Of a DNA stretch of 64,000 nucleotides, positions 5,949 to 55,430 are shown in pieces; within the stretch, counting starts at the first letter, position 1; each line of letters begins with the position of its first letter. This DNA is from Zingiber officinale (lineage: Eukaryota; Streptophyta; Magnoliopsida; Zingiberales; Zingiberaceae). A model generated the notes under the pieces. The model saw nothing but the letters and a program-made list of their open reading frames with translations. It was not told the DNA's origin and ran no database searches. The stretch is from positions 93,772,984-93,836,983 of the forward strand of contig NC_056005.1 in the NCBI RefSeq assembly GCF_018446385.1, read 5' to 3'. Made by a program: the position numbers and the translations under genes.

Positions 5949-7722
5949 TGGAATTTCAAGATGGTCTTGAATTCGACACAAGGGTGCCTCCACCATTCAC
6001 AATGATGAGCTTCAATCTTTGAAGATCAAGGATCGAGAATTTCTTAATGGTGGAGATAGAGCAATGGTTTGCTCTAATGGAAGGCTTCGAAGCTCCAAAA
6101 AATTCAAGGGACAAAATTCTCAAGAGGAGCAAGTGGAGCCAAGACCAAATCCAAAGATGTGAGGCCAATGACAAAGTGACCAAGCTTTTGGTCAATTTAT
6201 TGCCGAGCAACATCTTGGAGCAAATTGGAGATTTTGAAGATGCCAAAGAGCTATGGAGCAAATTGGCCAAGATTCATGAGATCCCCTCCACTGTACCAAT
6301 CCAAGAAAAATCCAAAGAGGGTAACTCATTGGAGCAAGACCAAGAGGAGGAGAATTCCGAAGGTGAGAGATGCTCATCTTCCGAAGAAGAAGTCCAAGAA
6401 GCTTCATCTTCAAAGGAATGCAACGAAAAGGGCAAAGAGGGTGCATACTCTTTGTTTCTTATAGAAGATGAAGATGAAGGAGCCTCCACCTCTAGGAATG
6501 AGGGGGAGCAATTTTCGATGACACCGGATCAAGAAAAAGGAGAAGTCTCCACATCCGAGTCAAGAGAAGAAGAGGATGAAGAAGCTTCCACCTCCACAAG
6601 TCAAGCAAAATCAAATGGAGGATCAAGTGACATCCCTACACATGAAGGTATAAATGTTTCAATTAAGAATAAAAATCACATTATATGTTTTGAGTGTAGG
6701 GAACATGGGCACTACAAGAGTAAGTGCCCCAAATTGGCCAAGAAGAAGGGCCAAGTGGCACTAAAGGGCAAGGTGAAGCCTAAGGAGACCATCCCCGGAA
6801 CAAAGAAGAGCAAGGAGCACATTGTGTGCTTCTCTTGCAATCAAAAGGGACATTATAGGAGCCAATGTCCCAAGGGGAAGAAAGCGATAAAGGCTTATGG
6901 AGGAAGCACAACTCAAGTGGGAGCCTCCAAGGTAAAAAGAAAGGTATCATTTATTGAGCCTACTCCCTTGAATAATGGTAAAAAGTATGCTAGTTCTAAT
7001 TTTTATCATTTTAATGCTATTTACCACAAAAATAGGGAGCATAATAATATTAAAGAAAAACATATGGCTCTCCATGCTAAGACTACCACATCTAGGTCTA
7101 AGAAGGTAGATAACCAACTAGGAAGTAATCCTAAGGATTTTAGGTATTTACCTAAGAAAAAGAAAAATCAAGGTTTTAGTGAAAAATCCAAGATTGAGGG
7201 ATTATGGAGAGAAAATCAAGTCTTGAGGTCAAGACTTGATAAATTAGAAAAGACCCTAAAAAGGATGGAAAATATCCAAAAAGGGCAAAATGAGCATAAC
7301 CTAGGTTTAGGACAACAAAAGTCATTCAATGGTCATAGAGGTTTAGGATACAAACCAAAGGCTAAGAAGGATGTAATTCTTACCATAGGGTTCCATATAG
7401 TTATGGAACCGAGTCTAAGTCAAATGGTCAAGTAAAAAGTACTAGGAAGGTTATTCCTAAGAGTATTTTTGCAACAAAAGTGACTAAAACTTCTAATAAG
7501 CCCAAGAAAGTCACAAAGAAGGTCACAAGGGAAGAAATCCCCAGAGTTGACCTAGAAAATATGACCAAGGCTTCTAAGAAGCCTAACAAGGTCACTAGGA
7601 AGGTATCTAGGGAAGTTATCCCTAGTGAATACCTAGAGCATCCAAGGAGCACCAATAGGTTTTGGGTTCCTAGGAGTATTTTTTTTCTACCCCTTAGATG
7701 GGTTAGAGAGTGTCAACTCTAA
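5949..7722 (+). pseudogene. gag of element A, frameshifted
   Basis: The long open part (6047-7435) has an N-terminal gag helical region with W-F-A-L-M-E-G and the 'AKELWSKL' wording of plant Copia gag. Acidic Glu/Ser tracts come next, then two CCHC knuckles: CFECREHGHYKSKCP near 6690-6735 and CFSCNQKGHYRSQCP near 6828-6873. A coiled coil (about 7195-7290) follows. The ATG at 5949 opens a frame that carries the conserved start of gag but stops at about 6025. A frame change just before 6047 separates it from the main part. After TAA 7433 the same kind of Lys-rich tail continues in another frame to about 7720. So gag carries at least two frameshifts. Confidence 0.8.
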
Positions 7723-14163: not shown

Positions 14164-14759
14164 GGGTTTAGAAAAGACAACAATTATGCAATTAACTTAA
14201 CCACTTCTTCAATTAAGTGTTACTTAACACAAAAATAAGAAACCTGGTTATGGCATAGAAGAATGTCATACACAAATTTTAGAAAAATAAGCAGACTAAA
14301 AGGATTAGTTAGATGTCTACCAAAATTATCTAACTTAGATTCAACCATATGTAATGTCTGTCAACAAGGTAAACAGACAAAATCTACCCACAAACCAACT
14401 AGTCAATCACAAACCAACTCAATATTAGAACTGTTACACTTAGACCTATTTGACTCCCATGGAGTTAAATCAATAAATGGAAGCATATACTGTCTAGTAA
14501 TAATAGATGACTATTCTAGGTTCACTTGGGTAAAATTCTTAAAAAATAAAGATGGAGCCTTTGAAATATTCACAAATTTCTGTAAACAAATTGAAAATGA
14601 AAAAGATATCAAGATTAAAAGAATTAGAAGCGACAATGGGAGAGAATTTAAAAACCACAATTTTAGTAAACTTTGTCTCGAAAACGGATATTATCACGAA
14701 TTTTCGTGTTCGAAAACCCTCCAACAAAATGGAATTGTAGAAAGAAAAAATAGAATCCT
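14164..14759 (+). pseudogene. pre-integrase and integrase core of B, first part
   Basis: Resumes the frame of 3876-4168 after element A. W-H-R-R-M-S begins the GAG-pre-integrase zinc finger (near 14250), with C-x2-C in ICNVCQQGKQTKS (near 14350). The rve integrase core follows: first catalytic Asp in HLDLFD (about 14437), second in IRSDNGREF (about 14625), and the final Glu in VERKN (about 14740). A TAA lies between the protease remnant and the zinc finger. The frame is interrupted at about 14759 by an insertion. Confidence 0.85.
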
Positions 14760-15246
14760 CATACGTGCTTCAACGTATCCAAATGACTTTCCGACTGCTC
14801 TGGGCTCCTGCTACAAAGCTGCTGCGCTCGACGACTGCTCCAAGGAGTTCCGTTCGCGCTCGGCAGACAGACATCAACACGAAGTGCTTCATCTTTTGAT
14901 CCTTAAAAGAGTTGGTGAAATTTCCTTTATTGTACTTAATTATTATAAAAGGCAAGTGCAGTGTGTTGCACTTGGCTTCATTCTTATTGTACTCGATTCT
15001 CTCTTCCGGGGGTACCGGAAAAGGTTTTTAGTGGACTGCCCATCGATAGGTTCGCGGGACCTAGCCTTGGAGTAGGAGTCGCCGAAGGCTCCGAACCAAA
15101 TAAAAACTGCCTGTGTTATTTTTGGTGTTGCTTTTCGTATTTACTTTCTGCTGCGTACACTCGTGTTTTAATAATCGAAAAGAAGTGTTTTTCAAAACCA
15201 CGTGATTCACCTCCCCTCCCCCTCTCATGTGCGTCACGATCCAACA
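14760..15246 (+). mobile_element. LTR-like insertion in the integrase of B
   Basis: About 487 bp of unrelated sequence between two halves of one integrase helix. It holds a TATA-like 'attataaaag' (about 14940), and 'ggagtaggagtcgcc' and 'ggctccgaacca' at 15070-15100, which also occur in the 3' part of the LTR of B (22278-22312). Its end is 'cgatccaaca', like LTR B. The right end is LTR-like (CA). The left end does not start with TG, and the flanks (tcct/ccct) match only loosely. I read it as a solo LTR or LTR fragment of a B-like family with a damaged left end. Confidence 0.6.
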
Positions 15247-16470
15247 CCCTACTTGAAGCTTCCAGAACTATGCTAAATGAATATAATCTACCTAAATATT
15301 TTTGGACGGAAGCTGTCAGCACAGCTTACTATGTGCAAAATAGAACTACACTAAATAAAACACACAATAAAACCCCTTTTGAAATTTACTATAACAAACA
15401 ACCCAATATAAAATATTTCAGAGTATTTGGGCGCCCATACTTCATCCTAAACACAAGAGAACATTTAGGAAAATTCACTTCAAAAGTATAAAATAGAATT
15501 TTTGTAGGTTACTCCCTAAATAGTAGGGGCTACAAAGTTCATAATAAGGTTACCCTAAGGATTGAAGAGACTACCAATGTGAAATTTGAAGAATCCAACG
15601 AAAACCTAAAACAAACTCAACCAATTGAATTTATTCAAGAAAACAATTCTGAAGGAACCAACCAACCCCTAAATCATGAAGAAGAAGATCAACCTCAAGA
15701 GAATCAACATCCTAGAACTATAAGAGTCAACCCTAACCATCCAACTGATCAAATAATTGGTGACCTAGACCTAAGGGTTCAAACTAGGTCATCCTTTAGA
15801 AATTTAAGCCAAATATCATTAATCTCAAAAATTGAACTCAAAACCATAGCTGAATCCCTACTTGACCTAGACTGGGTCATAGCTATGCAAGAAGAACTAG
15901 CTCAATTTGAGCGTAATGAAGTTTGAGACTTAGTACCACCACCCAAAAACAAGAAAGTAATAGAAACAAAATGGGTATTTAGAAACAAACTAAGTGAAAC
16001 TGGGGAAATTACTAGAAATAAAGTCAGACTAGTTGCTAAAGGATTTAGTCAAGTAGAAGGACTTGACTATGATGAAACTTATGCCCCGCTAGCCAGATTA
16101 GAGTCCATTAGAATGTTACTTAGCTATGCAACCCACAAAGGGTTCAGATTATATCAGATGGGCGTTAAATCTGCGTTCCTAAATGGACTAATAAAAGAAG
16201 AAGTCTACGCAGAACAACCACCTGGGTTTGAAAATCTATAACACCCTGACTATGTCTACAAATTAAAAAAAGGCTTTATATGGACTTAAACAGGCACCTA
16301 GGGTATGGTATGAAAGACTAACTTCTTACCTAATCTCTAAAGGGTTCAACCAAGGTCAAATTGACCCTACCTTATTTGTCAAGTTAATAAAATAAGATAT
16401 TTTTATAGCTCAAATCTACGTAGACGATATAATCTTTGGTTCAACAAATTTAGAATTTTTAGATGAATTT
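15247..16470 (+). pseudogene. integrase C-terminus and reverse transcriptase of B, with stops and a frameshift
   Basis: The integrase helix resumes (ARTM-like 'ASRTMLNEY'), then the GKF-type end and the 'VGY' region, an acidic linker (15579-15720) and the Copia RT domain. RT features are ETKWVFRNKL, RLVAKGF (about 16027), 'YDETYAPLAR' and the catalytic IYVDDIIFGS (YVDD at 16417-16428). Lesions are TAA 15489, TGA 15924, TAA 16239, an extra base in the A-run near 16267, and a stop near 16394. RT copies element RNA into DNA; this copy cannot. Confidence 0.85.
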
Positions 16471-16479
16471 ACAAGTCTA

Positions 16480-17361
16480 ATGGAACACGAGTTTGAAATG
16501 AGTCTAGTAGGTAAATTAACCTATTTTTTATGGTTACGAATCAAACAAACGAATGAAGGAAATTACATTTTTCAACAAAAATACACTAAGGAATTACTTA
16601 AGAGATTTGGAATAGAAAATACTAAAGAGATAAAAATACCTATGGCAGTGAACACAATCTTAGATGATGACCCCAATGGGAAACCAGTGGATTTAAAATA
16701 CTATAGGAGTGTCATAGGTAGCCTACTATACTTAACTGCAAGTCGACCAGATATTTTATTTACAGTTAGTATGTGTGCTATATACCAAACCTGTGCTAAA
16801 GAATCTCATTTCACTCAAGTCAAAAGAATCTTTAGATACCTTAAAGGAACAACAAATGTAGGAATTTGGTATCCCAGAACCAATAACTTTGAATTACTAG
16901 GATATTCTGACTCTGATTATGCCGGGTGCAAATTAGACTGTAAAAGTACAAGTGGTGGGTGTCAACTACTGGGTCCATCACTTGTCAGTTGGTTTAGTAG
17001 AAAGCAACACTGTGTTGCTCTATCCACAACTGAGTCAGAATATATAACTATAGGAGAGTGCGTTGTACAATTATTATGGATGATGCACACCCTAAAAGAT
17101 TTTAACTTAAATCTTACAAATGTAAAAGTTTTAATTGATAATATTAATTCAATTAACCTAACAAAAAATCCAATGCATCATTTCCGAACTAAACAAATTG
17201 AAATTAGGCATCACTTTATCAGGGATCATGTCACTAAAGGTGACATTGAACTCAAATATATTGAGTCCAAGTCAAATTTAGCAAACATATTCACAAAACC
17301 ACTCCCTGAAAGTGAATTTATCAATCTACGTAGAAAATTAGGGATGTGTTTAATAGATTAG
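16480..17361 (+). pseudogene. RT thumb and RNase H of element B
   Basis: The 294-codon open end of the B polyprotein. It contains the RT thumb, the Copia 'YRSVIGSLLYLTASRPD' block (about 16700-16750) and RNase H. RNase H residues are seen as YSDSDYAG (about 16904) and STTESEY (about 17023). The conserved end is ANIFTKPLP (about 17281) and a 'LRRKLGM' tail before TAG 17359. RNase H removes the RNA strand after copying. This part is the best-preserved segment of B. Confidence 0.85.
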
Positions 17362-26022: not shown

Positions 26023-28124
26023 CTAAGGTTTGAGGAAATGAGGGTTGAGCAATTTCCCCATTTCGAGCATTCCAACCTTGTCTTTGCCATCAAATATAGT
26101 CTTCAGTTTCTCGTCGCAGCGAATCTCCTGCTTATTTTTAGGATTCTGCAATGATGAAGGAAAAAAATGTTGGAACTGAAACTTTGATCAATCAGATAGA
26201 ACTGGGAATTAGCTCTCTGTAAGTTGTTCAAGCAAATATCACAATAACAATGTGTTTTTGCTCCTCTTTCAAGCAAGCAAATATCGCATATCCAATTGAC
26301 AAATCCTGAATTGAAAGTATTCAAATATAATATCTTTAAATAAGTCTTCTTCTATTTATGTGTTTCAATACCTACAATATATTCTTTTTCCCATTTTTTG
26401 TTTATTAAATAACTCTGAGATACCTCAGCAAGCTGATTGATTATAGAAATAGCAATAAGCTACACAATGCAATTAGATACCAGCGATTACATTTAAAGTG
26501 AGCATGAACATGCAAGATAAGAAGGGGAAACCCGGTTTATGTGGGATATTGATATCTTACACAGTCAAAACCTACTGAATTTAACAATAGGATGTTCATC
26601 AAATTCTTGTAGCACCATGGTTATCCACGAAAGAATTATCTGAATCGCTATCACAACTTATCCATTTGTCAAATGTGATTCAAATAAAAATCACTGTTGG
26701 ACTAAGTGCATAAGTAGACTTAGACCACGAATAAGTTGACCTTAATTCTAGTAGACAGACAAGATAAACATCTTATCCTATACCTTTCTTTTTTCTATCA
26801 TAGCAGACGCCAATAAATTACCAATCCTGGATTTATCAACTCTGTAGGCTGTAGCTTAAACTTGAAGAACCACTAATCCAATAAGCACAAACACAAAACA
26901 ATATGACAATTAAGGAGGGGCCACTTTGATGCTCTAACTATTTTTTTTTTTGTTGTTGTCACTTCCTTTTCTGAATAAACTTGTTCAGATTTCCTTAACA
27001 TATTCAAACCTTAAGTTGTATAGCCCTGAAGGAAAAAGGAAGAGCTAAGTTGCATATGGAAAGCAAACTTTTTGTATAAATAAAATATTTTTCAAAGAAA
27101 ATTTCTATGAGGAAAAGTTTCACAGGGGGATATATGATAGAAGCAAGTATACTCGCAGTTGCCTTCTCTTCCTTTTCCCCTCTTCCATGAGCCCTTCAAT
27201 AGCTTCTGCCCCCCTGCTGAAGGAGTGGAGGTGAAGGGGGCACAAATGGGGGCAGAGGGACGGGGTGCAGAGGAGGCCGAAGGGTCGCATGGAGGTGAAT
27301 GGAGAAGAGCAAATGAGGCGAATCGCCAAAAAACTCAAAAACGGAGAAATAAACCTAGAACAAAAGACTCTCAGCTTCCAAATCAATAAGAACCGAATAG
27401 AAGATTATGCAAACACCAAAATTCATCCCGAAATCGATCATTCACAACAGAAATCATCAATCAAGTAATAATCAAGTCGTGAAAATTTGTCCTACAGAAA
27501 AACCACAGCTAAGAAACCGCCAAAGCACAGTAAGAAGTAGGCGACACCAACAACTATAAGAACGGAAATAGTACAAAAAGAGTGCAGACAATGGTTAATG
27601 CTGGTGCGGATACAACAAAATCGACATCCACGATCGTAGAGGCTAAAGACAGTGAGCTAACCCTAAAATTCCTAGAATAACAAAGAATGGTCACACTGCA
27701 AGATAGTAAGATCTATGGAAAGGCAGCAACGAAGGTCAAATACATGTTTACACTTTTCCCGAACCCTAGACATAGTGCGGGAAAAAAAAAGTATAGGAAA
27801 AGGCGGGGATCGAACCTGAAGCTGGTTGGCTTTGATGTGCTCCCAGATCTTTTTGACGACCTCCATCCGCGTGCTTTCCTGGACGCCGAGGAACTTCCTC
27901 AACGCTGGGGACACCGGTACAGGCTTCCGCAAGCCCACCTTCGGCGGCGTCGCTGCTGCCGCTGCAGGAGGAGCAGCCGCTGCCACCTTCGTCACCACCC
28001 TCGCTGCTGCTGCTTCCTTCGCCCCGCCCTTGGCCGCCGCCATGAGCACTCTGCCACTCCCAAGAACCCTAGACATGGCTTCTGCTGCTGCCTTCCTCTC
28101 TCTCGGAATCGAGGCAGCTACCAT
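26023..28124 (-). CDS. SWIB/MDM2-domain protein, two exons
   Basis: Exon 1 is 28124-27816 and exon 2 is 26145-26023, both minus strand. The intron (27815-26146, 1670 nt) has GT and AG ends, and exons join after NQLQ in phase 0. Total 432 nt, 143 residues plus TAG. Residues 1-60 are Ala/Lys/Arg-rich with no acidic run, like an organelle-targeting leader. The SWIB fold spans about residues 62-143: LRKPVPVSPALRKFLG, VVKKIWEHIKANQLQ, then DEKLKTIF and VGMLEMGKLL. Short single-domain SWIB proteins of plants are often organellar or nucleoid-associated; this is family knowledge, and the location here is inferred. The first ATG is used; an internal Met at residue 17 (28076) begins MSRVLGSGR and could be the true start. 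Confidence 0.88.
26146..27815 (-). other. intron 1 of the SWIB gene
   Basis: 1670 nt bounded by CAG|GTTCG and TTGCAG|AATCC on the minus strand. Frames inside it (for example 27120-27389 on either strand) have no recognised domain. No transposon with clear ends is seen within it. Confidence 0.8.
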
Positions 28125-30760: not shown

Positions 30761-31285
30761 GATAGATGCTAGCGATGGCTACTCGACCCCGAACGGGGGA
30801 GATAGATGTATGATATACTGGTCCGATATACTGGTCCTCCCGGCCGAACGGCTCGGGGGCCTTCGGCTTCGAGCGCTTGGCTCGGATATAAACCTCTTCG
30901 AGCCTGTGGCTCGAATATAAACCTCTTCGAGCCTGTGGCTCGGATATAAACCTCTCGGCCGATCAGCTAGGGGGCCTTCGGTGATAACTCGACCTCGAAC
31001 AGGGGAGAGAATATATGATATGCTGGTCCGTGCAGAGGTCTTCAGCCCGGGAGGTTTATAGTCGCCGGCCCGACTGCGTCCCGACTCTTGGTCGGTCGCC
31101 CGGGAGGTTTACAGTCGCCGGTCCGACTTTCGATTTTTAACGACGGTGCTCGTCGGCGCGGATATTTATAGCCGGTCGGCGCGGCTCTCGATTTTTAACG
31201 ACGGTGCTCGTCGGCGCGGATATTTATAGCCGGTCGGCGCGGCTCTCGATTTTTAACGACGGTGCTCGTCGGTCTTCAAGTGAGA

Positions 31286-31700
31286 CTATATACCCGGCCG
31301 AACGGCTCGGGCCTTCACATCGAGCGCTGGGCTCGAATACCATATACCCGGCCGAACGGCTCGGGCCTTCACATCGAGCGCTGGGCTCGGATACCATATA
31401 CCCGGCCGAACGGCTCGGGCCTTCACATCGAGCGCTGGGCTCGGATACCATATACCCGGCCGCGCGGCACTAGGAAACACATCGAGCGCTGGGCTCGGAT
31501 ACCATATACCCGGCCGAACGGCTCGGGCCTTCACATCGAGCGCTGGGCTCGGATACCATATACCCGGCCGAACGGCTCGGGCCTTCACATCGAGCGCTGG
31601 GCTCGGATACCATATACCCGGCCGAACGGCTCGGGCCTTCACATCGAGCGCTGGGCTCGGATACCATATACCCGGCCGAACGGCTCGGGCCTTCACATCT
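31286..31700. repeat. 54-bp tandem array in F
   Basis: About 7.5 near-identical copies of a 54-bp unit containing 'cccggccgaacggctcggg', 'cttcacatcgagcgctggg' and 'ctcggatacc'. One unit (about 31456-31490) is a variant carrying 'gcggcactaggaaac'. As 54 is a multiple of three and the unit lacks stops, long open frames appear on both strands; they are not genes. Confidence 0.92.
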
Positions 31701-31854
31701 AGCGCTTGGCTCGCATATAATCCTCCCCGAGGTAGTCTCGGCTATAATGTACCTGGCCGAGCGGCTCAGGCATTCGCTCCTAGGCAATAACCTCCCTCTA
31801 TCATCTTGAACAGCGCAGGGTTTTGGTTTCCCATCCTGCCATAATAGTATGCAG

Positions 31855-38363: not shown

Positions 38364-39947
38364 ATGGAGCAACCGAGCATCGTCCAGGCTCTTCCGGCCG
38401 AGCAACCGAGGATCGTCCGGGTTCTGCCAAGGGAGCAACTACACATTATCCAGGCTCTGCCGGCCACTCCTAGGAAACAAAAGGAGCGCATCGCCGGAGC
38501 CACTGCAAGCAGCAACTTTCCGTCGCCGACCGGCACTTCTCGATGCACTCGCTTGCAGGCCGCCCCTGACTGGTCCACTTACGATACGCTTGTCCTTCTC
38601 AACGAGATCGCTTCCATGGACGAGGACTGGCTCAAGGCGCTCTCCTCGTACCAGAAGTGGAAGATGATCGCGGACAACTGTGCCGCCTCGAACGTCGTAC
38701 GATCCTCCCACCAGTGCAAGAGGCGGTGGAAGTCGCTGCTCTCTGCCCACTCGAAGATCAGGGAGTGGGAGTTCAAGCATGGTGAGGGATCCTACTGGAG
38801 CTTGGATAGTGAGAAGAAGAAGCACTTGCTAGGGCTCCCGTACATGCTCGACCAGGAAGTGTTCAGTGCCATGGATGCAGTTATTAGGCCGCAGGAGGGT
38901 CAGGCTGTGTTGGTCGATATGGAGGTGGAGGGCATCATCATGGCTGCCAATGGTTTGCAAGAGCTACCTGTGGCCGCAGAGACAGAAATGCTGGATGTTA
39001 CTGATGCTCCAGGTCTGTTCACAACTCCACTTTCATTCATTAATGCATTTCCTTTTGCTAAGCAACGTTATTGAATTATGAACCATGAACACATATAGCA
39101 CATACCAGCCATTATGCAGATAGTTGGATTGACTACTTATCATCATTGGCAAACATTCTTGCTCTAAAGAAATTTGATATACTAATTTGATGTAATAGTG
39201 CTGAAGATGGGCACTCTCCTCTTAAATCACTTTTTTCCCCCATATATCTACTTAGCCTTTAGCTAACTGAATGCCATTGTCTGTGAGCCTCTCTTTTAAT
39301 TTGTGAAAGTTTGCCTCCACACCCAATCAAAGTCCAACCAATCTTGTAACCAATCATTCTGATGAACTTTGTGGTTTAGAACAGCAAATCATGTTTTCTA
39401 TGGTTAACTCTCTATGCCACTAAATCTTCATGGAATTTATGTTCGATGAGCTACTTCACCCTGCACCACTGTCACCTTACCAATAGGTATATCAAACTCT
39501 TTGGACCGATTAACCTCATGGAATCTCACACCTTCTTCTCCACTACCTTTGCTTGAACTTGATGGCCGAAAATCTCCTCTCTATGAAATTTGCATATGAG
39601 ATCACGTGATTCTGTTGATGTATCCTACTGAGAATACAGAATCTCAACTTTCAGGTTCCAAAGAGAATATAGAAGATGAGAATCAAGATAAAGAAAACTT
39701 AGAAAAGGCGAGAATTATGATGAGTAAGCTGCATGAGAATGCTCAGCAGATACATGTCATTCTGAAACATGAGCTAGAAGATAATCTTGGTGTGAATCCT
39801 GCTCTGGTGGATTTGGCATACCCTAGCGATGCAATGAGGTTGCAAGCAGATCAGTTAATCAAAGCTCTGAGGAGCCTTGTTGGTCCTCTGAACCAGTTCA
39901 CAGAGCTGATCAAGGCGGTCGGTTATGAAGGCATTCAACCTATATGA
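38364..39947 (+). CDS. trihelix / Myb-like (SANT) transcription factor, two exons
   Basis: Exon 1 38364-39012, intron 39013-39654 (GTCTGT...TTTCAG, 642 nt), exon 2 39655-39947; total 942 nt, 313 residues. The ATG is preceded in frame by TAG at 38358, so the start is firm. Residues 3-35 are three 11-residue repeats (QPSIVQALPAE type). The trihelix domain is about residues 69-140, with regularly spaced Trp at 70, 99, 122 and 135 and the 'QCKRRWKSLL' helix. A conserved 'MLDQEVFSAMDAVI' stretch follows. Exon 2 is an acidic start followed by an amphipathic helical C-terminus. Trihelix proteins bind GT-type promoter elements in the nucleus. The ASR3-like subgroup is my best guess; targets are unknown. 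Confidence 0.87.
38370..38468 (+). repeat. 33-bp in-frame triplication at the start of the trihelix gene
   Basis: Three diverged 33-bp units encode QPSIVQALPAE, QPRIVRVLPRE and QLHIIQALPAT in succession. They lie between the start codon and the DNA-binding domain. The multiple of three keeps the frame. Confidence 0.85.
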
Positions 39948-41115
39948 GTCCATGATATGCAATGCGATGCCACTTTGTCAAAGTTTTGGTTGCATTACCT
40001 CACACTTTGTCCTGATCAGGTCTACAATGCACTTAATTATTTATGAGTTAAACATGACTAATCGCTTTTGAGTTTTAGTGTATTAGCTTGTAGCCATTGA
40101 GGATCTGTCATGTTCAAAGACAGTTAGTTCATATAGCATGACTGTTTTATTTTTGGTCAAATAATTTGAAGGTTTCCTCCAAATTCAATACACAACTTTA
40201 GTTATATATGGATTTGCAAGAACACTGTTTGGATTATCCTCACATATACATATGAGAACAACTTCAGAGGACACCATGCTTCTAATCAGCATTTGTAAAC
40301 AAGTACACTGAACTCTGCGACTATTTCAATAGGTGAGCATCTCTCTCTGATAAAAATATCATCTTTTGGACATCTGCTTTGTCATTGGTTCATCTGTTAA
40401 CTTTATTTTGATGCAAAATTAATATCTCTCAGATTTCTTGCCATTTTGCTGCAGCATCACACTACGATGAATCTTGCGACCATTTTCATAGGTAAGCTCC
40501 TCTCTGATAAAATTCTTATCTTTGGATGCCTGCTTTGTGGTTGGTTCATCTGGAAACTTTATTTTGATGGAAAATGAATATTTCTCTTGAATTTCTTGCC
40601 ATTTGATGCAGAATCAACATCAATCATTCATCGTGAACGATCACACTGTCGATGAGTGATGAGTCCTGTGGCTATTTTGATAGGTAAGCATTTCTCTCTA
40701 TAAAAAAAACTCCTCTTTAGACACCTGCTTTGTTGTTGGTTCATCTGGTAACTTGATCTTGATGCAAAATTAGCATTCACCTCAAATTTCTTGCCATTCG
40801 ATCTTTTGTTTCTGGATTTCCTACGACATGATGACTCTCTTTGCTTTATCTGTTCCCTTGTTTGCGACTTATCATATACTTTTTACTGTGGAATGGGATT
40901 GCAAGTTAATGTCCTAATTCTTGGTGGGTCGTTTAAGTTGCGCACTTGCTGTAAATATGGACAAAGAACAATTGGTGGGATTTATATGGATCTTCCTTGA
41001 GTTTCTGGAGGTTCATAAAGGTCCACCATACACTTAAAGATTTACATATTAATGAACCATTTAGATCTCTTCAAATCTTTGTACTTTTCCTTTCTTTAAA
41101 AAAAATACTTTATAA
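39948..41115 (+). other. 3' region of the trihelix gene with a local triplication
   Basis: After TGA-free 3' sequence this region holds three imperfect tandem copies (about 40309-40466, 40467-40652, 40653-40805). The rest shows no gene; the frame 40791-41000 has no domain. Element G starts at 41121 with its duplication at 41116. Confidence 0.6.
40309..40805 (+). repeat. three tandem copies, each with splice-site-like ends
   Basis: Each copy of about 155-185 bp runs through '(t)gcgac.attttcataggtaagc', 'ctctctgataaaa', 'cctgctttgt..ttggttcatctg', 'actttattttgatg' and 'atttcttgccatttg'. A 'gcag' acceptor-like site follows in the first two copies. Each therefore contains a donor-like AG|GTGAGC or AG|GTAAGC. 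Confidence 0.8.
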
Positions 41116-53639: not shown

Positions 53640-55430
53640 ATGATCATGGAGATTGAACATATCAGCAGGAAGTCTCCTCCTCCTCCTCCTCCTTTTCATT
53701 CATGCCGTTCTCTCGCGAGACGCTTCTGCCACTTCCTCCTCTTCCGCTGCGATCCCTTCTTTCTTCAATTCCTATACTTTCTTCTCATTTCGCTCTCCGG
53801 CTTCCTCCTTCTGAGATCGCCGGCGGTCGCCGGAAGGGGTCGTCACATTGAAGATCTGGACCTATTCTTCACGTCGGTATCCGCCTCGACGGTGTCCAGC
53901 ATGGACACCGTCGAGATGGAGTCCCTCTCGCGCGCGCAGCTCTGGGTCCTCGTCGTCCTCATGCTCGCCGGCGGCGAGGTCTTCACCTCCCTGCTCGGCC
54001 TCCACTTCACGAGCCTGAAGCTTAGACTAAAACGGGAGGATTCGACCGTTGGTTCCGGCGGCGAGCTCGAGGACAAGCGCGAAGTGCTCAGGTGGCTGGG
54101 CTACGCCGTGCTGGGATACCTCCTCTGTTTCCACCTCGCCGGAATCTTCCTCGTCTCGGTGTACTTCGCCGTCGCGCGCGACGCGAGGGAGGTGCTGAGG
54201 CGGAAGGCGATCGGGGTGCCGGTTTTCGCCGTCTTCCTGGTCGTGTCCTCCTTCAGCAACTGCGGCTTCGTCCCCACGAATGAGAACATGGCGGTCTTCA
54301 AGAACGACTCAACTCTGCTTCTCATAGTGATCCCGCAGATCCTGGCCGGCAATACCCTCTTCCCTTGCGGCCTGAGGCTCGCAGCTTGGGTCGCGAAGAG
54401 GGCGGCGAGGAGGAAGGAGCTGGCTGGGGTTCTGCTGGCGCCGGAGGCTGTGGCGAGCGAGTACAAGCACTTGTTGCCTCGCCGGCACTGCGTCTACTTG
54501 GCGGCGACGGCGGTGGGGTTCGTGGCGGTGCAGGTGGCGATGGTGTGCGCGCAGGAGTGGAGGTCGTCGCCGGAGGTGTTGGGCGGGATGGAATGGTACC
54601 GGAAACTGGTGGCGGCGCTGTTTGAGGCGGTGAACTCTAGGCACACCGGGGAGACGGTCGTCGACGTGTCGAAGCTGTCGCCGGCGATCTTGGTGCTCAT
54701 CGCCGTCATGATGTGAGTCAATTAATTAAAAATTAAATAAATTAAAAAAAGTATCTCAAATTTGATATTTAAGATTTGATTTGATTTATCAATGTTTAAA
54801 TTACGATTTTTTTTTTTGAAAAAAAGGAGATAATTAGTTATTAATTTTTTAATAAAAAAATTACTTACTAAATATTGAATGTATATGTGTAGGTATGTTC
54901 CTTCGTATACTTATTTTGTTCCTCGAAGAGAAAGAGACTCTTGGAATTTTATAAAATCTAAATACAACGAAACAAAGATGCTTCGACGGAGCCTACACTT
55001 CTCCTTGATATGTTTCCCGATCATCTTTGTCTTTCTCATTTGCATCACCGAAAGAGGAGCGTTCTCGATCGACCCGTTGAACTTCAACATCTTCAATGTC
55101 ATCTTCGAAGTCATCAGGAAAGCTTGTTATTTACTATATAACACAAAAATAATTTACTATCATTATCGTTATCATTATCATTATCATTATCAATTTGTGT
55201 TTGTTGATGGTGGGATATCTTACAGTGCCCATGGAAATGTCGGGTTCTCGGTCGGATACAGTTGCGAGCGGCGGATGAAAGTAAACCCTAATGGTAGCTG
55301 CAAGGATGCTTCATATGGATTTGTAGGGAGATGGAGCAGCAAAGGAAAGATAATCTTGATGATGGTTATGCTACTTGGAAGACTGAAAAAGTTTCAAATG
55401 AATGGAGGGAAGGCATGGATGTTTGGATGA
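53640..55430 (+). CDS. HKT1: HKT1-type Na+ transporter, three exons
   Basis: Exon 1 53640-54712, intron 54713-54892 (GTGAGT...GTGTAG), exon 2 54893-55117, intron 55118-55225, exon 3 55226-55430. Total 1503 nt, 500 residues, normal for HKT. It has four membrane-pore-membrane units. Pore A is TVSSMDTVEME with filter Ser87, pore B SNCGFVPTNENM (Gly209), pore C ILAGNTLFPCG (Gly237), pore D HGNVGFS (Gly439). Ser-Gly-Gly-Gly is the class I, Na+-selective signature; such proteins retrieve Na+ from xylem at the plasma membrane (family knowledge). The N-terminus has a Pro run and basic residues. Met3 (53646) has the better start context. Intron 2 begins GA, not GT; if retained it adds 36 residues before pore D without a stop. 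Confidence 0.9.
54713..54892 (+). other. HKT intron 1
   Basis: 180 nt. The GTGAGT donor splits the codon AT|G and the acceptor GTGTAG is followed by GTATGTTCC. The site is the one expected from HKT family structure, between the fourth-domain start and the preceding helix. Confidence 0.85.
55118..55225 (+). other. HKT intron 2 with non-canonical GA donor
   Basis: The coding join ATCAG|TGCCCATGG gives I-S-A-H-G-N-V-G and keeps the frame. The donor reads CAG|GAAAGC; only one base separates it from the ideal CAG|GTAAGC. The acceptor is TTACAG. The length, 108 nt, is 36 codons, and the intron has no stop in the HKT frame. The interior holds a TATCAT-like simple repeat. Confidence 0.8.

Follow-up and report, generated by a model that had tools for sequence, protein, structure and literature searches.

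Introns with GA-AG boundaries are a kind already known; what is added here is an HKT gene of ginger. GA donors are very rare, numbering 0 to 14 per genome in five annotated plant genomes according to one report (PMC10668435), and just 19% of the GA donors annotated across the species studied in another had RNA-seq support (PMC7072748). In plants, intron 12 of SYMRK in Trema orientalis has changed from GC to GA, is ∼95% spliced and leaves the gene functional, and the same GA change works when placed in the SYMRK gene of Parasponia (PMC10668435). In animals, Eurytemora affinis and Oikopleura dioica possess thousands of supported GA-AG sites, for which a U1 variant has been suggested (PMC7072748). 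Within the HKT family, the second intron of rice OsHKT1;4 has a GC donor and is unstably spliced: of two longer variants, the first retains the intron entire and the second loses a shorter piece, and the truncated form of the protein is 47 residues shorter with its last 19 residues different. The authors linked splicing variation at this intron to leaf Na+ (PMC3394774). Searches of the open-licence literature found no paper on HKT and GA-AG splicing, none on an HKT GC-AG intron and salt, and no title on ginger HKT for Zingiber officinale, HKT1 and salt stress.

The ginger gene lies in a window of 64,000 nucleotides (C20:93772984-93836983), which was compared with its own assembly of 3,090,333,446 bases in 211 contigs. 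It occupies 53640-55430 on the forward strand and has three exons. Exon 1 (53640-54712, 1073 nt) carries pore loops A to C. Intron 1 (54713-54892, 180 nt) is an ordinary GT-AG intron (GAT/GTGAGT...GTGTAG, the slash marking the exon boundary) containing in-frame stops. Exon 2 (54893-55117, 225 nt) ends in ...TTC GAA GTC ATC AG and adjoins the filter of pore loop D, and exon 3 (55226-55430, 205 nt including the stop) supplies that filter, AHGNVGF, and the last helix. The three exons join to exactly 1503 nt, as the initial annotation had it, giving 500 codons and a stop.

The joined protein matches TrkH (PF02386) in a profile search with an E-value of 5.9e-33. Its top match in the Protein Data Bank is the HKT1;1 chain 8y6j (5.7e-124), followed by chains of HKT1;5 and HKT1 (8w9n, which we take to be Arabidopsis HKT1), and all of these outscore the HKT2 chains. 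Its segments SVSASTVSSM, SNCGFVPTNEN, VNSRHTGET and SAHGNVGF have aligned counterparts in HKT1 chains. HKT subfamily 1 is marked by serine in pore loop A and glycine in loops B to D, and with residue roles assigned from general knowledge, this signature is present in the window gene. On these matches the gene is a member of HKT subfamily 1, belonging to the TrkH/HKT family and closest to HKT1-class chains, and its spliced mRNA is predicted to encode a normal Na+ transporter of 500 residues, or 498 from the allele on C19 described later in the text. No relatives were found for the joined protein among genome contigs, or for the retained frame of exons 2 and 3 among viral contigs, as expected of a plant gene.

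Elsewhere in the window are Copia-type retrotransposon pieces at 6047-7435 and 14263-17361 (forward strand; gag, integrase core and a weak reverse transcriptase match), a SWIB-domain exon at 27672-28124 (reverse strand), a tandem-repeat open reading frame at 31262-31702 built of repeated YTRPNGSGLHIERWARIP units and open on both strands, a Myb/SANT-like open reading frame at 38364-39071 (forward strand) and the H/ACA snoRNA snoR103 (RF01213) at 40931-41035 (forward strand; 80.6 bits, cut-off 50).

The feature of interest is intron 2 (55118-55225, forward strand). Its boundaries were sought by pairing each donor in 55090-55225 with every acceptor no further on than 55239, for introns of at least 20 nt and over all dinucleotide pairs. 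Four joins regain the sequence EVISAHGNVGF, with ends CA-TA, AG-AC, GG-CA and GA-AG. These are one junction slid by up to 3 bases, and an AG end is found only in the GA-AG join. The donor that had been proposed at 55118, CAG/GAAAGC, is therefore confirmed as the only one that restores the pore sequence with an AG end. The restored EVISAHGNVGF and the EVISAYGNVGF found in HKT1 and HKT1;5 chains align without gaps. GT and GC donors in exon 2 and intron 2, taken from 55050 onwards with every AG up to 55326, were also tried, and none keeps the pore.

The GA dinucleotide (55118-55119) is preceded by AG and followed by A (CAG/GAA). The acceptor AG (55224-55225, TTACAG/TGCC) is the sole AG in the intron past 55122. 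A branch-site-like TTGAT, by consensus match, lies at 55204-55208, its A at 55207 being 19 nt before the end of the intron, and an array of TATCAT hexamers runs from 55158 to 55192 (both on the forward strand). The intron is 108 nt long and free of in-frame stops, again as first annotated, and retention adds 36 residues directly before AHGNVGF.

The assembly contains paired chromosomes (C19/C20, C9/C10, C13/C14 and C1/C2), and the homologous chromosome C19 carries a second allele of the gene. Its donor, CATCAG/GAAAGC, has the same GA. Its intron 2 is 96 nt long, 12 nt shorter than that on C20, the length difference falling in the region of the TATCAT array, and is still a multiple of three and open. 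Over 498 aligned codons the two alleles differ with dS 0.0725 and dN 0.0203, a ratio of 0.28 (Fisher p 2e-5). The ratio is 0.24 for exons 2 and 3 (p 0.0055), and exon 3 alone has three silent and two replacement differences (p 0.07). By these ratios the coding sequence of both alleles is under purifying selection. Aligned intron sites diverge by 10.3% in intron 1 and 8.3% in intron 2, like silent sites. With a substitution rate of ∼6.5e-9 per site per year, the alleles would have diverged on the order of 5 million years ago. The 81 nt surrounding the donor show no difference between haplotypes, so a recent local exchange between them could have spread the GA. This identity is nevertheless unexceptional, since exon 1 contains identical runs of 216, 137 and 88 nt.

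PF02386 matches 10 places in the genome, taken as its HKT loci, and the second intron was read in all of them. HKT1-class loci are non-GT at this intron in all six cases found: the donor is GA in the C20 and C19 alleles and GC, with AG acceptors, in three loci on C9 and one on C10 (GCAAGT once, GCTAGT three times). The four HKT2-class loci, on C13, C14, C1 and C2, all have GT. The C20 and C19 proteins share 61% identity with the C10 protein and 38 to 40% with the GT group. The C10 protein is closest to HKT1;5, HKT1;1 and HKT1 chains. From each GT pair one protein was compared, C13 and C2, and for both the HKT2 chains rank highest, HKT2;2 ahead of HKT2;1. Intron 1 has a GT donor in all ten loci (GTGAGT in nine, GTCAGT in C9b), so that a weak donor is seen only at intron 2, and there only in the HKT1 class.

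As to the loci themselves, the HKT1-class cluster has three copies at C9:84.94-85.05 Mb and one at C10:81.67 Mb, so the haplotype copy numbers found differ. Exon 1 appears broken or shortened in C9a and C9c, by a frame change or an extra stop, and C10 is complete. The HKT2-like pairs lie at 4.86 Mb on C13, 4.31 Mb on C14, 145.6 Mb on C1 and 165.4 Mb on C2; they encode 520-555 residues and have GT-AG introns.

Intron 2 occupies the same position in all ten loci. Like an exitron, it is a multiple of three and stop-free, and its retention adds residues (PMC10985678, PMC4484396). The exitron reading was rejected, however, as the intron separates exons and does not lie inside a coding exon. Judged by its shared position, it is an old intron between exons.

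The initial annotation had set the donor against an ideal GT site. The one-base difference stands, but GC is the donor at the four loci most closely related to it in the genome, which makes a change from GC to GA likelier than one from GT. Within this genome alone, a change from GT to GC with a separate change from GT to GA is as short a path as GT to GC to GA, and the two tie. The tie is broken in favour of the second path solely by the GC of rice, represented by OsHKT1;4, and by the apparent age of the duplication between C20 and C10. These two differ with dS 0.72, which suggests that they duplicated after the split from the grasses; rice would then be an outgroup and GC likely ancestral. 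The rice intron is very probably the same intron, because it is followed by ∼66 residues, as computed from PMC3394774, compared with 68 in the window gene and 66 in C10. Both genes are HKT1-class, and in both the intron is the second of two, at matching positions. They differ in that the rice donor is GC and retention leads to an early stop, whereas the ginger donor is GA and the retained frame is open. Derivation of GA from GC by one base change is the likeliest history.

The explanation that we favour, and consider probable, is that a GC-AG intron became GA-AG by this single change, now present on both haplotypes, and that the ordinary U2-type spliceosome, using normal U1, still cuts it out at the GA, with more leakage than for a GT intron. 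Of the possibilities put forward in the initial annotation, that of a rare GA-AG intron is the one supported, by the sole AG-ended join that restores the pore and by the same GA on C19. CAG/GAAAG would base-pair with U1 to either side of a lone mismatch at +2, like a GC site. The computed U1 duplex at the donor is -6.4 kcal/mol and is unchanged with C at +2; with G it is -7.0 and with T -11.1, so GA is not singled out. The GC sites of the paralogues give -6.8 and -7.5 kcal/mol. This energy is a coarse measure, as an internal GT at 55210 (ATG/GTGGGA, -7.3) outscores the GA donor, yet with none of the AG acceptors tried does that GT preserve the pore.

A U1 gene whose position 7 would compensate by pairing with A at +2 was not found among 30 read of at least 42 Rfam U1 matches, all 30 having the normal ATACTTACCTG 5' end. 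The exact variant pattern including flanking bases occurs at two places, on C1 and C2, and no Rfam family matches either. On the U1 matches read, normal U1 is the likelier agent. Rescue by RNA editing was dismissed on general grounds, as A-to-U editing of RNA is not known to occur. Removal of the intron would probably be less complete than that of a GT intron, and leaky retention is plausible. The unspliced fraction would give a protein, probably inactive, with 36 (C20) or 32 (C19) residues added shortly ahead of the pore-D filter.

A sequencing error was also among the original suggestions. Taken here to include an assembly error at 55119, with GT or GC as the true donor, it would involve a single base only. 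The ginger assembly of PMC8342452, if it is the one used here, was nanopore-based and Illumina-polished, and polishing could in principle give both haplotypes one shared error. Against this, the C19 allele, ∼8 to 10% different in its introns, has the same base, and the single-base error rate given in PMC8342452 is ∼0.0014%. Error is extremely improbable as an explanation, and a new null allele is very unlikely, given that C19 shares the GA despite a dS of 0.07 and that the gene is under purifying selection; the assembled A is very unlikely to be anything but the real base. The suggestion of a new loss-of-function allele is thus contradicted as well, the GA being present on both homologues in a frame that selection maintains. 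A different form of loss would be that splicing ceased with the GA, leaving a recent null or a dying gene in both haplotypes. Changes at position +2 usually destroy splice donors, and sister-group HKT1-class copies, at least one of them complete (C10, 494 aa), could cover the loss. Both alleles, however, keep full frames, with dN/dS 0.28 across a dS of 0.07. This argument weakens if exchange between the haplotypes spread the GA recently, but we still regard loss of the gene as unlikely.

The open frame through intron 2 raises another possibility, namely that the intron has become coding, being always kept in a protein that works with the insert. An open intron that retains the frame is found among the ten HKT loci only in the GA alleles, at 108 and 96 nt, and in none of the other eight: in seven (C9a, C9b, C10, C13, C14, C1 and C2) the retained intron has a stop, and in C9c (113 nt) it is open but shifts the frame. 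Yet when intron 2 is shuffled, 4.8% of the sequences stay open under mononucleotide and 10.8% under dinucleotide shuffling, and the intron contains the TATCAT array, so by itself the open frame carries little weight as evidence. Once open, it would survive eight random changes with a probability of ∼0.62, and the association of GA with an open in-frame intron is compatible with chance. Between the C20 and C19 introns five codons differ, each difference being an amino-acid replacement, and divergence of the intron is close to that of silent sites; there is therefore no sign that the insert has been selected as protein. Moreover, the insert adjoins the filter, at a position that is gap-free in the alignments of four solved HKT chains. 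A coding intron is in our estimate highly improbable.

Regulated retention, another possibility of the initial annotation, which would switch the gene between an active transporter and the inserted isoform, is an addition to the favoured explanation, and their odds overlap. It finds a parallel in OsHKT1;4, where splicing varies at the same intron and has been linked to leaf Na+ (PMC3394774), but the retained protein is not conserved. We think it improbable. A more specific version, a splicing valve in which a retained, pore-blocked HKT1 isoform would evade nonsense-mediated decay and lower Na+ retrieval, tuned by tissue or salt, is a long shot. If true, the inserted isoform would perhaps act by joining normal subunits, and the tuning would resemble that suggested for OsHKT1;4 and its GC intron in rice (PMC3394774).

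Returning to GA-AG removal by the normal spliceosome, the case resembles Trema SYMRK in that a plant gene with a GA donor has relatives with GC at the same intron and is kept functional, in ginger probably so. In Trema, splicing was measured and the GA is confined to Borneo accessions (PMC10668435); the ginger gene encodes a transporter and has GA on both haplotypes of one plant, where its splicing is predicted. In the sites of Eurytemora affinis and Oikopleura dioica, too, AG precedes and A follows the GA (PMC7072748), but the U1 variant suggested for those animals has no counterpart in the U1 genes read from ginger.

The ginger intron would be a second plant example of a step from a GC to a GA donor, beside Trema SYMRK. 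Support comes from a series within a single genome, of GT in HKT2-class genes, GC in the sister HKT1-class genes and GA in the window gene. Gene finders expecting GT or GC could mis-annotate this gene. The locus would offer a natural, testable system for the acceptance of GA by the normal spliceosome, in a salt-tolerance gene family with a weak donor at the same intron in rice and ginger.
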